Source of the DNA: Methanococcus voltae | GTDB taxonomy: Archaea > AGJL01 > Methanococci > Methanococcales > Methanococcaceae | Direction of reading: 5' to 3' | DNA: 64,000 nt | Assembly (NCBI RefSeq): GCF_017875395.1 | Contig: NZ_JAGGMO010000001.1 | Location: 62,001-126,000, forward strand | Shown here: positions 8,176 through 48,273 of the stretch, piece by piece | How the letters are laid out: each line of letters begins with the position of its first letter | Numbering within the stretch: position 1 is the first letter of the stretch | Position numbers and translations under genes: made by a program | Notes under the pieces: model-generated | The model's database searches: none | What the model saw: only the letters and a program-made list of their open reading frames with translations | Told to the model about the DNA's origin: nothing

Positions 8176-9417
8176 TTAGTTTTCGTTTTTCCTACTATTT
8201 TTCGAATTATAGAATAATACTGCAGACAATATAATTAATATCGCTATATATACTACGATATAAACTATTATCTCGTTGAACGAGCCAGAACCTAATAAGT
8301 ACGTTGAGAATACAATTAACAGTTGTCTGACCATCAATACCGTTATTATTTGGAAGAATAAAGCCTTTAAGAGGTTTAATATATTCTTTTTTGTATGGAC
8401 TAAATCATCTATGAAGTGTACACATACCAATATTGCAACGGATAACGTCAATGGGTTTGCGATATTCAATAAAAATTTACCCACAAATAAAACCCATTCG
8501 GGGTCTTCGGAAACTCTATATGCGTAAATACCACCCACTATGATGATTAAAAGGGATATTATACCCCCTGCAGGTGATATTTTACCAACTTGCAGACCTT
8601 CCTTACTCTCCATAATTTTAGACTTGATATTTTCAGTCAAACCAGCCCCTTCCGATAAAACATAGATACCCAAAAGCCCAGATATAATCCTCCAACCTAA
8701 ATCTTGGAATACTGCATAAAGTATCAATACAAACCCTATTGAAACAAATATTAAAGGTATATACCTTGACATTGTTTTATTGATAAATTCCTGTATCAAA
8801 TAATAGGTAGATTCTAAGGATTCATTTTGTTTTATGACCACTCTCTTTTTCCAAACAAAAATATCTTTTAATTCCAAATACTTTAATATTGTTTCGTCTT
8901 CTTTTCCATCAGATACAATATATATGAAATCTGGCTCATAAAGGTAAATTAAAAAATCCAATTGTTCTTTAATTCTTATTGCACACTCCTCAGAGTTTAC
9001 ATCCTTTGCACCAGTAATTGTTGCTAATTCCACGTCCCTATTTTCCCTTTTTAATGAGTCGTAATGCTTTACACCGCCGAGTATGGAGTTAACGTCACTA
9101 TCGCCAGGGTCTGCTAAACCCAATTTTACAGCTGCTGAGATATTTTCATTTCTACCCAATATAGGACTTGAAATATTAGCTTTACGCCCTACATCGTCAT
9201 CCATATCCACTACGAGTATTAAATATTTTTTATCTTCGGTATTGTAGCTTAAATCGATACTCTTACCATTAATGCTGTTCTTACCAGTATTATTTCCGTT
9301 ATTATTGTTATTATTGTTATTTTGAGTAACACTATCATTGCTATAATTAACACTAATACTATTGATATTTGTAATATCATTACTAATTTTTTTAGAATTT
9401 AAAGGTTCAAAACTCAT
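8176..9417 (-). CDS. DUF373 family membrane protein
   Basis: Archaeal protein of unknown function, 413 residues. After an Asn/Ser-rich N-terminal extension of about 60 residues (including eight Asn in a row) comes the DUF373 core: ILVVDMDDDVGRKA, a DPGDSDVNSILGG segment and a DFIYIVSDGKED segment. About six hydrophobic helices fill the second half (from residue 218), so the Asp-rich domain probably faces the cytoplasm. The start is supported by GGGGTAAT before the ATG, and no better Met lies between it and the core, so the extension is likely translated. Confidence 0.82.
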   Translation of the reverse strand: MSFEPLNSKKISNDITNINSISVNYSNDSVTQNNNNNNNNGNNTGKNSINGKSIDLSYNTEDKKYLILVVDMDDDVGRKANISSPILGRNENISAAVKLGLADPGDSDVNSILGGVKHYDSLKRENRDVELATITGAKDVNSEECAIRIKEQLDFLIYLYEPDFIYIVSDGKEDETILKYLELKDIFVWKKRVVIKQNESLESTYYLIQEFINKTMSRYIPLIFVSIGFVLILYAVFQDLGWRIISGLLGIYVLSEGAGLTENIKSKIMESKEGLQVGKISPAGGIISLLIIIVGGIYAYRVSEDPEWVLFVGKFLLNIANPLTLSVAILVCVHFIDDLVHTKKNILNLLKALFFQIITVLMVRQLLIVFSTYLLGSGSFNEIIVYIVVYIAILIILSAVLFYNSKNSRKNEN

Positions 9418-42982: not shown

Positions 42983-43504
42983 CTAATTCCCCCTTATGTC
43001 AGATAATATGATGTTTACAGCATCATCAACAGCATTTTCCACTTCTTCACACAATTCCAATACAACGTCAGGTTCTGAAACGTATTTTGCTTGACAACCG
43101 ATAACTTTGTATTTTATGTTGTTTTCTGTGCAAATTCTGTTTAATGTGGTGGATAATGGCCAATCATGACTATCTACTTTAGTGTGTTCGGGATTAGGAA
43201 GGTTTTCCTTTGTAAGTATCTCAATAGTGCCAGGTTCAAGCCCATAATCAATAACATCTACAACAGTTATATTCTTAACTTTAGAACTTTCGTCAATTAA
43301 AGTAAGTACCTGTTGAGGTGCCCCCGCCCCAGCATCTACAAGTGCTATGTGTTCCTTTTCCTCATCAGTTAACAAATCTTGTAATTTTTCGATAACGTGA
43401 ACACTAAATCCATCGTCAGCAAAAAGGATATTTCCACAAGCTAATATCAGAGTTTCTTTTAACAAATATGATGGGGTTAAGTCAAATTCTTGTTCATTGC
43501 TCAT
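42983..43504 (-). CDS. fruD: Hydrogenase maturation endopeptidase of the fru cluster
   Basis: Ni-dependent protease that trims the C-terminus of the large subunit after NiFe insertion. The 173 residues (ATG behind AGGATGTATATT; the frame opens three codons earlier) have [20 protein letters not shown] at the N-terminus, [12 protein letters not shown], the [15 protein letters not shown] segment and the [10 protein letters not shown] His. Asp/Glu/His for nickel recognition are in place. It sits between fruA and fruG, the expected place, and its substrate is the 17-residue tail of FruA. Confidence 0.92.
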
Positions 43505-43640
43505 AATATACATCCTATATTAATTAATATTAGTAATATTTGTAATATTAATTATGTTGAATTAATTATGTTATTTATTAAATTTAAATAGCCTATTATG
43601 AATAAATCACATAGTACAGTTTATCTAATTAATTTTATTA

Positions 43641-43670
43641 TATTATAAGTCCTTTCGGTTCCTTATAATA
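43641..43670 (-). promoter_or_regulatory. SECIS element of fruA
   Basis: On the minus strand a 9-bp stem (TATTATAAG with CTTATAATA) closes an internal loop with GAA on one side and A on the other, then a CC/GG clamp and a GAAA apical loop. The GAA/A internal bulge is the mark of archaeal selenocysteine insertion elements, which lie in the 3' untranslated region. It begins one base after the fruA TAA stop at 43672-43674. Confidence 0.88.
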
Positions 43671-43671
43671 C

Positions 43672-44907
43672 TTAAAATCTTCTTAAATCTACTACTTTTC
43701 TTGTCTGTTCATCTTTCACGATGATGTGCGTTGCACATGAAGCTCATATATCGTATGCTCTCATGATTACTTCCGCATATTTGTGGTGGTACCCTTCAAT
43801 AGCCTTTTCAACTACTGGCATGTTCCATGTTGAAGCTGCGATGATTCTGTAGTTTTTAATTCTACCATCTGCGCCCACTTCTGCCATGTGTGTGTTTGTA
43901 GCTCTTGGAGCTTCGTGTACACCTACACCGAATCCATCTTTGTATTCTGGTGTAATTTTAGTAGCACCTTCAATGTTTAAGTCATCGAGTAATTGTAATG
44001 ACCTTTCAACAGCACCTAAGTTTTCTAATGCTCTTGCAAGGTTAAGATCCATTACGCCACCGTCTGTTCTGAATGAACCAAATTTAACCATTCTTGCTCT
44101 TGGTCCGCCCTCTGCAGGACTTCCCAAGTATAATGGAATTTGATTTGTTGCGGTTTGAGCGATTTCTGGATAATTAGCATAATAATTTTGAGCGGTTAAT
44201 TCAGAAATATCATCTAAATCTAATTTAGTTCTGTCACCGAATGTTGTATCGGTTGCAATGTATGGTAAATCGTGCTTTCCTAAATCAGGGATTCCGATTT
44301 CATCCAAATATCTTTCTGTCAACATTTCGATAATGTCGTACATTTGTCTTGCATCTTTTTGGTATTCTTTGCAAGCGTAGTATAATTTTGCCTTAGCTCT
44401 TTCGGAGATATTATTTCTCATACCACCAATTACTAAGTTAGGTGGGTGGATACCTTCTCCCCCAACGGTATCTACGATTAATTGACCCTCTTTTCTCATT
44501 TTTTGAATCAATTTAATACCGTCTATTCTTAAGGTATCTGCCTCTTCAGGTTTTAACAAATCATCCACAATTAACAAATGATGTAATGGGTGTGAATGCA
44601 TTCTGTTGCCTAAACCTAAGAGTTCTCTTAATATTGTACCATCTTGCGGAATTTCCGCGCCGATAGCGTTTTCGATAGCTTCACATGATGCTATACCGTG
44701 TGTAGCCTGACATATTCCACATATTCTCATAACTGCAATAGGTCCAAATGCTGCAGGCTTTCCTTGAAGCATTGTTTCAAATCCTCTCACAGGAGTGGTA
44801 TTTGGATAAAATGCTTTGGTTACAATTCCGTCATCGTCCACATTTAAAACGAGTTTGGCGTGCCCCTCATGTCTTGTTGTAGGAGCAATTGTTATAGGTT
44901 CTGCCAC
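43672..44907 (-). CDS. fruA: F420-reducing selenohydrogenase, alpha (large) subunit, with selenocysteine
   Basis: NiFe(Se) large subunit that oxidises H2. The N-terminal metal motif RICGICQATHG is present. The apparent stop, TGA at 43744-43746, falls where the first Cys of the C-terminal DPCxxCxxH motif should be; read as selenocysteine (residue 388) the chain continues I-U-A-S-C-A-T-H, then a 17-residue tail ending in TAA. The total is 411 residues. A SECIS hairpin follows. The start used here is the GTG at 44905-44907, five bases after a strong GGAGGTGA; the GTG at 44914 overlaps that site and is unlikely. FruD would remove the tail after the His. Expression should depend on selenium supply. 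Confidence 0.93.
43744..43746 (-). other. UGA selenocysteine codon in fruA
   Basis: In-frame TGA on the minus strand. It is flanked by codons for Asp-Ile before and Ala-Ser-Cys-Ala-Thr-His after, which is the NiFe ligand motif with Sec in place of the first Cys. Confidence 0.9.
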
Positions 44908-44958
44908 AATGGTCACCTCCGAGGTAATCTACATATAACGAATTATGTTTCTATTAGG

Positions 44959-44969
44959 TATTATATAAA
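44959..44969 (-). promoter_or_regulatory. Likely TATA box of the fru operon
   Basis: TTTATATAATA on the minus strand, a good box A, about 50-60 bases before the fruA start. The proximal 21-bp direct repeat overlaps its upstream edge. Confidence 0.55.
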
Positions 44970-44985
44970 CTGATATCTCTTTAAA
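44965..44985. promoter_or_regulatory. Proximal 21-bp direct repeat of the fru promoter
   Basis: The shared core is GATATCTCTTTAAA-like (ATAAACT[G/A]ATATCTCTTTAAA). This copy differs from the distal one by a single base and touches the TATA element, as expected for a regulator or BRE-neighbouring activator site. Confidence 0.6.
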
Positions 44986-44997
44986 AATATAAATGGG

Positions 44998-45019
44998 GGT
45001 ATTTAATTAATTAAATACC
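44998..45019. promoter_or_regulatory. 22-bp perfect palindrome between the fru repeats
   Basis: Arms GGTATTTAATT and AATTAAATACC are exact reverse complements. The site lies between the two direct repeats. Confidence 0.6.
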
Positions 45020-45033
45020 TAAGATTGTTAAAA

Positions 45034-45054
45034 ATAAACTAATATCTCTTTAAA
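45034..45054. promoter_or_regulatory. Distal 21-bp direct repeat of the fru promoter
   Basis: Matches the proximal repeat at 20 of 21 positions in the same orientation, 69 bp further upstream of fruA. The rest of the 427-bp gap up to 45343 is A+T-rich with no ORF. Confidence 0.6.
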
Positions 45055-45343
45055 TCATTTTATTAGTTAATAGATATTAAAAGAATTAAAAATATGGTAA
45101 ATTATGGTCAAATAAATAATTGATATGTCGTATTTTAAAAATAAGTATCTATATCGTAATATATTTTTTACAAAATTTAAAAGTAATGTATCAAAAAAAT
45201 GATTTGCAATTAATATTAATGAGTATAGTATTAATAATTTTAAATATGTAATACTTAAATAATACTTATTAAAAAAAGGTAATAAAAAGAGTAATTATAA
45301 GATAATTACAAGTAGATATATTGTTAATTATCTTGTTAATTAC

Positions 45344-47452
45344 TTATAATTTCCAAGATATACCAAGTAATTCACTATATTTATCTAAAACTCTTGATAT
45401 ATATTCGTCTAAAGCTTTATCGCCATCTTCTTCAAATTTTTTAGCCCATTTTTCATTTTCAAAGTCTTTTGCGCCACAAGCTATTAATTCTTTTACCCTG
45501 TGACTTTCTATAACATGAGGATAGCCCACTTTTAAATCATAATTATAGATTTTTTCAAGTAATTTTAAACTAACTTCGTGCAAATTATTTGACAAATAGT
45601 AGTTAACTCCATTAAATTCATTTAATTCATTTAATTCGTCTGATTTTTCCATATCTATTTTTTCTTCATCTTTGAACACTTCTGCTAGTAATTCATCTAA
45701 AACTGGCAATATCCATTTTCTATGGAATCGGCAAATGCCTAAGTTTTCAAGAGTTATCTCTTCAGTTGCACCTTTAACACTTAAAGTAGCTAACTCTTCA
45801 GGCTCTAAAAATACCCCATTTTGATAATACGTAAGATATTTCCCCTGGATTAAATAAGGGATATAGTTACCTATTGCCCAATACATAGTTGGAGATATTT
45901 GCCCATTGTGTCCAAATGCCACATATACTGCAAAATCATTGAAATTTAAAGGTTCTTGACTTTCTATACAGTTTGATTTATATTTTCTGAACTTTTCAAC
46001 TTTTGCGTTGCAATCTGAAGTATTTAATTCATGCAATCTTTCCTTATAAATTTCATTTAATTCTTTTCCGGCATATCTTGTATCTTTTCTCAATAATGGG
46101 ATTAATTGCTCAATTTTCTCATAGTCTAGATTTTCTAAATTTATTTGCTTTGATTGAATTAATTCTTTGGTATTTTCATTTAAACCATAAACAATTAAAT
46201 TTGCAAGAATTATTGCCTGCTCTGCATTGTGGTTTGAACATTTTAAGATATTTTCGTCAGTATCGTAATCTTCGACATCAAAATAAGGCATTTTGATACC
46301 CACTTCTTCAGGCTTTAAAAGTTCCACGTTTAAAAGTTCAAAAACCCATGCGCACAAGTTTCCGAACTCGATTGCATCCATTCCTAAACTATCTACGGCG
46401 TGAACCACTTTATCAACTGCGTATATGTCAAAAATACCTAAACAAGGACCATTAGCTTCATAAGGTTCATAATCTACGTGCATTCCTTTTCTATATTTTT
46501 TACAGGCTACAGGACAAGGTTCTCCACAATTTGTCCAATTTTTAGGTATTATAGATTCTTCGTCAAATTGAGCTACAAAATACTTCAAAATTTTGTCATG
46601 GAAATACAAACGGTCATCTTTTTCTATAAATGGAGTTCTCCAATTAAATATTGGCGTTAAATCCATTGCAGTTTTGTAATTATTTCCAAAAGTCCCACCT
46701 GTTTCAGTTTTTTTGCTGTACCGGTATTTTTCAGTATTTGAAAGTACTGCCTCGATATAAGGCTTATTGTGGCACGTTTCTACTATTTTTTTAAGTTTTA
46801 ACTCTTTTTCAATATCTTTTTTATAGTTATCTCCGAAAAATACGACCCCTATGACATTGTGGCATTGGTATAATGCTGAACCGCAACCACCCCTTGCTGC
46901 CCAGTCTTCAGAACCTTCTACGATTATACCATTTTTTATAGTTTGAGAATATATCCCCGCCATATCTGTGGTTATTGCACTTGGCCCCACCATAAAAGCT
47001 CTAAAATTCTCATCAATCTGTTTATATTGATCTATTAAATAATCGTTTAATTCATAAACACTTTTAAACCTTCCCTGTTCAAATTCCTCAAGTTCTTTAA
47101 ACTCTAAGCTAAAATTACCGTTTCCATTTAAAATTATTAGACTTGGTTTTTCACATCTTCCTTTAATTGCGATGTTGTCCAATCCAGTATTTTGGAGAGT
47201 ATAGCCTGCTCCCCCCATTGCTGAAAAATGGAAACCTTTCCATAACGGTGATCTAAAGGAAAATATTAACCTATGACCCCCAATAATCGGCAATACACCT
47301 TTTCCAACACAAAATATATTTTTATCACTATATACGTCTTCTTTGTAAGTTTCATAATCATCATGGAGTTTCATACCCCAATCTAATGGTAAATATGTGC
47401 CTACTACTGTTTCGTAGGTTTTTGATGACGCATCGATTATTATATTTCTCAT
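45344..47452 (-). CDS. Aldehyde:ferredoxin oxidoreductase (tungsten-type)
   Basis: Oxidises aldehydes to acids with ferredoxin as acceptor, using a tungstopterin and a 4Fe-4S cluster. The 702 residues include GAGYTLQNTGLDNIAIKGR, the pterin-binding AARGGCGSALY region, and the cluster motif NCGEPCPVACKKYR (about 305-318). DSLGMDAIEFGNLCAW near 355 is the family's second pterin segment, and GICRFHRKWI near 570 lies near the expected last Cys. GGGGATACA precedes the ATG. It is divergent from a winged-helix regulator. Confidence 0.9.
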   Translation of the reverse strand: MRNIIIDASSKTYETVVGTYLPLDWGMKLHDDYETYKEDVYSDKNIFCVGKGVLPIIGGHRLIFSFRSPLWKGFHFSAMGGAGYTLQNTGLDNIAIKGRCEKPSLIILNGNGNFSLEFKELEEFEQGRFKSVYELNDYLIDQYKQIDENFRAFMVGPSAITTDMAGIYSQTIKNGIIVEGSEDWAARGGCGSALYQCHNVIGVVFFGDNYKKDIEKELKLKKIVETCHNKPYIEAVLSNTEKYRYSKKTETGGTFGNNYKTAMDLTPIFNWRTPFIEKDDRLYFHDKILKYFVAQFDEESIIPKNWTNCGEPCPVACKKYRKGMHVDYEPYEANGPCLGIFDIYAVDKVVHAVDSLGMDAIEFGNLCAWVFELLNVELLKPEEVGIKMPYFDVEDYDTDENILKCSNHNAEQAIILANLIVYGLNENTKELIQSKQINLENLDYEKIEQLIPLLRKDTRYAGKELNEIYKERLHELNTSDCNAKVEKFRKYKSNCIESQEPLNFNDFAVYVAFGHNGQISPTMYWAIGNYIPYLIQGKYLTYYQNGVFLEPEELATLSVKGATEEITLENLGICRFHRKWILPVLDELLAEVFKDEEKIDMEKSDELNELNEFNGVNYYLSNNLHEVSLKLLEKIYNYDLKVGYPHVIESHRVKELIACGAKDFENEKWAKKFEEDGDKALDEYISRVLDKYSELLGISWKL

Positions 47453-47610: not shown

Positions 47611-47694
47611 AAATTACAAGATTATAGTATATTGATATTATTGGAAATCATATTTTAAAATATAAAAAAATTAAAATTGAATATAAGGGATATT

Positions 47695-48273
47695 ATGCAA
47701 ATTGAAATCGATAAAAAAGTTATAAAAGCCCTTTCTGCCCGTTCAAGAGTTAAAATATTGAAAAAATTAAATCAAAAAAGATATACGGTTACAGAATTGT
47801 CCAAAGCTCTTAATTTATCTAAATCAACTGTTCACGAACATTTATCGATTATGCTTGACGGAGGACTTGTTGAAAAGCATGACGATGGACATAAGTGGAT
47901 ATACTACGGAATGACTAGTAAAGGTAAACTCATATTGAATAGCCAGTTTGAAAAAACTATCGTATTATTCCCATTATCTGTCGTTGCCTTTGTAAGTGGG
48001 TTTTACAGCTTATTCATATATGGAAAAGGAACTATTGTTTCACCAATGATGGCAAGAACTACGGCAATTTCTTACGGGGAAGCGACCAAGGATTCCGCTA
48101 ACCTTTTAATGGCTGAAAAAGCCACATCTGTTGCAGAAACTATGGTACATCATGACCCTGCAAATTTGATAATTGGGCTAATACTTTTGGGAATTGCATT
48201 TTTTATGATGAATCACATATACCAAACTTATAAAAATGCAAAAATTAATGAAAATCGCTATAGGATAGATTAA
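47695..48273 (+). CDS. ArsR-type winged-helix regulator with two membrane helices
   Basis: 192 residues from the ATG behind AAGGGATATT (a TTG six codons upstream is possible). Residues 8-80 are an ArsR-like winged helix: ALSARSRVKILKKLNQKRYTVTELSKALNLSKSTVHEHLSIMLDGGLVEKHD, then a wing with KWIYYGMT. Two hydrophobic segments follow (FPLSVVAFVSGFYSLFIYG and LIIGLILLGIAFFMM), making it a membrane-anchored DNA-binding protein. The loop between them contains Met and His residues. It is divergent from AOR and may regulate it. Confidence 0.82.
   Translation: MQIEIDKKVIKALSARSRVKILKKLNQKRYTVTELSKALNLSKSTVHEHLSIMLDGGLVEKHDDGHKWIYYGMTSKGKLILNSQFEKTIVLFPLSVVAFVSGFYSLFIYGKGTIVSPMMARTTAISYGEATKDSANLLMAEKATSVAETMVHHDPANLIIGLILLGIAFFMMNHIYQTYKNAKINENRYRID

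Follow-up and report, generated by a model that had tools for sequence, protein, structure and literature searches.

Two nearly identical 21-bp direct repeats flank a perfect 22-bp palindrome upstream of fruA in Methanococcus voltae, and this arrangement raises the question of whether these repeats and the palindrome form a regulatory switch or whether some other part of the promoter region is the functional one. The locus lies in a window of 64,000 nucleotides (the whole stretch of DNA that was analyzed), and a first-pass annotation had read the layout as modular and switch-like. We located all of its parts as described: the repeats (ATAAACTGATATCTCTTTAAA and ATAAACTAATATCTCTTTAAA) are identical at 20 of 21 positions and lie 69 bp apart from start to start, the palindrome (GGTATTTAATTAATTAAATACC) is flanked by both of them, and the TATA box shares 5 bp with the proximal repeat (Table 1). 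Along the coding strand, the distal repeat is followed by TTAGGTATTTAATTAATTAAATACCCCC, ATTTATATTTT, the proximal repeat, ATAATACC, the leader, the ribosome binding site and the start codon.

Table 1. Features of the fruA promoter region in the window, and exact copies of a second box upstream of mtd in other genomes
Feature	Position	Strand	Remarks
fruA, large subunit of the F420-reducing [NiFeSe] hydrogenase	43672..44907	-	GTG start at 44907; stop TAA at 43672-43674; in-frame TGA for selenocysteine at 43744-43746
fruA ribosome binding site GGAGGTGA	44913..44920	-	From sequence; kept in relatives
TATA box (sense TTTATATA)	44962..44969	-	From sequence; aligns with the TATA boxes of all relatives
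Presumed BRE (TFB recognition)	44970..44976	-	Between AAAGAGA and TATA; by position only, presumed from archaeal promoter architecture
Order-wide fru promoter element (R1 match)	44961..45022	-	E=1.6e-13, 51.5 bits; sole strong match in the genome
Proximal 21-bp repeat	44965..44985	-	Sense TTTAAAGAGATATCAGTTTAT; forms the core of the conserved element; covers the presumed BRE and runs 5 bp into the TATA box
Perfect 22-bp palindrome	44998..45019	.	Symmetric in G005; 2 of 11 pairs broken in G006; no significant order-wide dyad
Distal 21-bp repeat	45034..45054	-	GAGA core only in the window genome; outside the conserved element
TATTAG-N5-CTAATA boxes upstream of mtd	G006:C2:171652, G027:C1:291364, G028:C1:967323, G029:C1:1605036, G033:C35:1963		

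Comparison with relatives placed the fruA start at the GTG codon, as opposed to position 44916 chosen by the ORF caller, which falls inside the ribosome binding site. The TATA box stands at a suitable distance before the ribosome binding site and this start, as in archaeal promoters, and we infer that transcription begins near 44937. Farther away in the window, an open frame at 47677-48273 (+) that diverges from the large gene lying upstream of fruA encodes a helix-turn-helix-like protein with apparent membrane segments, possibly a local regulator.

To obtain a chance expectation for the repeat and the palindrome, we used first-order Markov simulations of the 427-bp fruA intergenic region, which is 83% A+T. 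Perfect palindromes of at least 22 bp arose in 11 of 1500 simulated spacers (0.7% per comparable region), and a 21-mer direct repeat with at least 20 matches in one of 600 (0.2% per comparable region), the best such repeat usually reaching 17 of 21 (median). The window itself holds three palindromes of this length or longer. Each structure is mildly unusual locally and unremarkable across the intergenic regions of a 64-kb A+T-rich window. When up to three mismatches were allowed, the repeat and palindrome patterns gave a single weak repeat match in the rest of the window, at 8260, and a genome search found no other copies of the repeat with fewer than two mismatches.

The closest relatives, G005 and G006, whose FruA proteins are 95% and 93% identical to that of the window, show 88-100% identity between about -165 and the start. 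Across the 21-bp distal copy, however, the only bases that vary among the three voltae-group genomes are the very ones that make the repeat: the GAGA core is replaced by CTGT in G005 and CCGT in G006, and their copies (TTTAAACTGTTATTAGTTTAT and TTTAAACCGTTATTAGTTTAT) match the proximal one at 17 of 21 positions. This equals the simulated median for A+T-rich spacers. FruA identity suggests that G000 and G005 are sisters, and if so, the repeat-like state of the distal copy would be derived. G005 has a perfect palindrome, and in G006 two substitutions break two of its 11 pairs without compensation. A significant order-wide dyad was not found among 22 genomes tested by column shuffles (0.566 complementary at the centre, against a median null maximum of 0.62). 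We consider the distal repeat, like the perfect symmetry, to be probably a recent, neutral coincidence of an A+T-rich lineage. The fruA promoter region is partly under strong and old constraint, but the two-repeat and palindrome layout that the first-pass annotation took for a modular switch lacks conservation even among the nearest relatives. A further stretch of about 40 bp (~45236-45281) is 97-100% identical in the three voltae-group genomes. It lies in the interval that separates the T-rich end of the oxidoreductase gene upstream from the middle part of the spacer, where conservation is lower, and matches to it elsewhere are mainly A+T-rich and of low complexity.

The constraint resides in an element of about 62 bp with the consensus TTAAATNCCC-TATTTRSATTTTTAAAGAGATAT-NNN-TTTATATAAT, which takes in the palindrome sequence, a CCC-TATTT stretch, TTTTTAAAGAGATAT and the TATA box. 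We aligned 22 fruA upstream sequences (alignment A1; consensus TTAnATATTTAAAAAATTAAATnCCCnTATTTAnATTTTTAAAGAGATATTnnTTTATATAAn), and searched 36 whole genomes with a sequence-only profile, R1; the distribution is thus that within the Methanococcales, the phylum-level set consisting of the same 36 genomes. In 29 of the 36, R1 had a single strong match (E 1e-14 to 7e-7), which always lay upstream of fruA and at the same position relative to it. Because R1 was built from 22 of the matched sequences, the scores of these are in part built in, which is not true of the restriction to one site per genome or of the matches in genomes outside the building set. Six genomes that possess FruA (G014, G015, G018, G025, G031 and G034) have degenerate versions only, so that the element is not indispensable, and the remaining genome without a match is half-complete and has no detected fruA. 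In a comparison of 30 fruA upstream regions, the block ending in the TATA box was kept from Methanococcus to Methanocaldococcus and stood at one and the same place in every genus examined, being more degenerate in a few sequences. The spacing between the upstream sequence and BRE/TATA is constant in most genera and shifted by 2-3 nt in five genomes of one genus (alignment A1).

Secondary R1 matches had E values of 0.001 or worse, and we rejected them as additional targets since open frames of 70 codons or more overlap 11 of the 12 that we inspected. The core pattern TTTAAAGAGATATNNSYTTATATAA, with up to three mismatches, was likewise essentially fru-specific in the Methanococcales, apart from isolated three-mismatch matches. 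Over 45 columns, conservation was 0.72-0.74 at fru and 0.72-0.77 at hdrA-vhu, compared with 0.51-0.52 at mtd, 0.52-0.62 at mcr and 0.34 expected from composition, and conserved bases at fru reach 20-40 bp upstream of the TATA box, past the needs of TATA and BRE. A known structured RNA element was rejected, as no Rfam family matched positions 43400-45500 at E values up to 1. Nor is the order-wide conservation due to a switch between selenocysteine and cysteine forms, because the selenocysteine TGA is present in each of the 35 FruA genes inspected and no FrcA-like second match was found in Methanocaldococcus. For the same uniformity of FruA, a contrast of Sec with Cys versions is impossible here as a test of the role of selenium.

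The first-pass annotation had pointed to vhc, frc and vhu as places to search for the motif, and had set its absence elsewhere against the idea. In 11 genomes, the frc-vhc regions contained no R1 match, and at the frc-vhc, vhu and hrsM loci it gave no promoter match except a weak one (E 0.15) at vhu of G031; the whole-genome search returned fru only. Thus, the proposal of a shared regulon fails because the motif is absent elsewhere. In the opposite direction, a vhu profile did not recognize the fru promoters, and with profile searches both ways we ruled out an operator common to fru and vhc/frc/vhu. The hdrA-vhu promoters (L044 and relatives) have an independent order-wide block, YTAATANCNNYATTARGNANTTTAAGAATATATNTTTTTATAAT, directly upstream of and including the TATA box. 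This block resembles that of fru to the eye, and the profile-profile comparison gave p values of 0.03-0.09, so that we did not accept the two as the same. In the maripaludis/vannielii group, the frc-vhc intergenic regions (L059, L056 and L062) carry conserved dyads, TTAGGTATTTGATAATATATTACCTA near frcA and TAGGTATTAATTTACCAAATATCTAA near vhc, both adjoining likely transcription starts. A TTTTCTATTTG-type stretch, common to the mcrB and vhc promoters, follows the TATA box directly, where the DNA melts first.

A different box emerged at the gene of the LysR-type regulator. A single strong LysR gene, which we identify as HrsM by its sequence and uniqueness, occurs in 34 of the 36 genomes, Methanocaldococcus included; those without it are the half-complete G021 and G004, which is complete (1.71 Mb, one contig). 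Just after the TATA box of hrsM, most genomes examined have the dyad TATTAG-N5-CTAATA (near 731-755 in L175 and 730-755 in L178), with exact copies in 13 genomes and similar boxes at vhc and vhu. In most genomes the frc-vhc region has a significant match to the box on its vhc side, hdrA-vhu has one upstream in 11 of 19, and exact copies lie about 125-180 bp upstream of mtd in five. A position weight matrix of this T-N11-A dyad, built from 11 hrsM boxes, gave no significant match at fru in the three voltae-group genomes (best p 0.06-0.085, overlapping the TATA box), and in other genomes there was no common position at fru, only a few low p values at differing positions. These observations suggest that TATTAG-N5-CTAATA is a candidate HrsM operator, with autoregulation, which fits the reported binding of HrsM to the frc-vhc region (PMC11097638). 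Four loci (hrsM, vhc, vhu and mtd) have this candidate box and fru does not, which would set apart two regulatory inputs that one might otherwise have treated as a single one.

Expression data from Methanococcus maripaludis place fru under strong control. On selenium depletion, fru is the operon most reduced in mRNA, with a change of -7.3 log2 (about 160-fold) for fruA, while the vhu operon falls by 3.4-4.3 log2 and mtd by 3.8 log2 (PMC11097638). FruA, FruG and FruB increase under H2 limitation, as did fru mRNA in an earlier study (PMC2723118). The fru operon of this species is thus regulated, and the conserved element may or may not take part in that regulation.

We propose, with a probability of roughly 0.6, that the conserved block comprises a fru-dedicated, promoter-proximal activator site together with the core promoter. 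The functional unit would be the block of about 60 bp running from the palindrome sequence through TTTTTAAAGAGATAT to the TATA box, and not the repeat pair with its palindrome. A sequence-specific activator would most likely bind between about -70 and -33 of the presumed start, touching the DNA beside the BRE and aiding the loading of TFB and TBP, and the TATA box and BRE would act as the core promoter. The element is specific to fru, a single copy being present in the genomes of nearly all Methanococcales. Protein binding, and activation rather than repression, are here predictions; the strong regulation of fru in M. maripaludis agrees with this reading.

Could the element instead be a site for HrsM? 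Classical LysR activators have a dyad recognition site and an activation site next to the promoter, and the fru region could be viewed in that way, with a dyad near -70, about 30 bp from the TATA-proximal element, and AAAGAGATAT as the activation site. The distribution of the LysR gene, which extends to Methanocaldococcus where frcA was not found, would agree with this, as would the strong decrease of fru on selenium depletion in M. maripaludis and a marginal resemblance of the fru dyad to the frc-vhc dyads of the maripaludis/vannielii group (matrix cross-scan, p 0.05-0.15). Disruption of hrsM also reportedly affects the expression of both Sec and Cys genes (cited in PMC5322559). However, the box at hrsM itself is not found at fru, and the six genomes with degenerate elements possess HrsM. 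A LysR site should be accompanied by its regulator wherever it is conserved, but G004, which lacks the LysR gene, keeps the fru element (E=2.9e-12) along with frc, vhc, a selenocysteine fruA and the frc-vhc dyads. G004 is possibly a natural hrsM-minus strain, but with the frc-vhc dyads still in place it may have lost HrsM only recently. Taken together, we regard an HrsM site at fru as unlikely.

The conservation could also come from a demanding core promoter alone, that is, an extended BRE and bending by A-tracts without any regulator, with fru regulated elsewhere. Strong archaeal promoters typically have A+T-rich tracts, the most conserved columns touch BRE and TATA, and we know of no regulator for the fru element. 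Nevertheless, the very specific TTTTTAAAGAGATAT is common to no other promoter within each genome, and neither mtd nor the strong mcr promoter has comparable conservation, so that we consider this explanation improbable. A loop or cooperative switch with two equal operator copies around the palindrome, confined to the voltae lineage, appears far less credible still. The repeat and palindrome are each individually uncommon in simulated spacers, the distal region is conserved in the three voltae-group genomes except for the repeat-making bases, and the distal copy of the window, now closer to the proximal one, could be the gain of a second site; yet this state is present in only one of the three close genomes, with variation exactly at the bases that make the repeat, and the palindromic symmetry is not maintained in relatives.

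Beyond the proposed activator site, we tentatively suggest that the element could be the target of an undescribed activator of a single operon, Methanococcales-wide and distinct from HrsM, that couples synthesis of the F420-reducing hydrogenase to the state of selenium or of H2/F420; we view this further step as rather doubtful. The papers cited here describe mainly a repressor of the opposite, Cys-containing gene set. An order-wide element upstream of fruA provides a precise target of 20-40 bp for protein fishing and reporter mutagenesis (TTTTTAAAGAGA). It also carries a caution, in that symmetry in spacers of 83% A+T is readily misread as a switch.

The nearest counterparts of the element include other hydrogenase promoters. 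The hdrA-vhu block is likewise order-wide, of the same size and just upstream of the TATA box, and its operon is selenium-responsive in M. maripaludis; because of this second block, the dedication of a site to one operon may be general to hydrogenase promoters. It differs in sequence (YTAATANCNNYATTARGNANTTTAAGAATATAT) and often carries a TATTAG-N5-CTAATA-like box. The frc-vhc intergenic control region of M. voltae, which together with HrsM repression was reportedly treated by Sun and Klein in 2004, Noll in 1999 and Mueller and Klein in 2001 (cited in part in PMC11097638, PMC5322559 and PMC11267900), likewise serves hydrogenase genes of this genus and contains control elements, but it carries the box proposed for HrsM and no match to the fru profile, whereas fru is without that box. 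Among archaeal activators, EarA, which acts at the M. maripaludis fla promoter (PMC5512572), and TFB-RF1 of Pyrococcus, which acts by recruiting TFB (PMC5937170), have sites beside BRE/TATA in the same immediate-upstream position as the fru element. The latter differs from these sites in its own sequence, its single target and its order-wide conservation.
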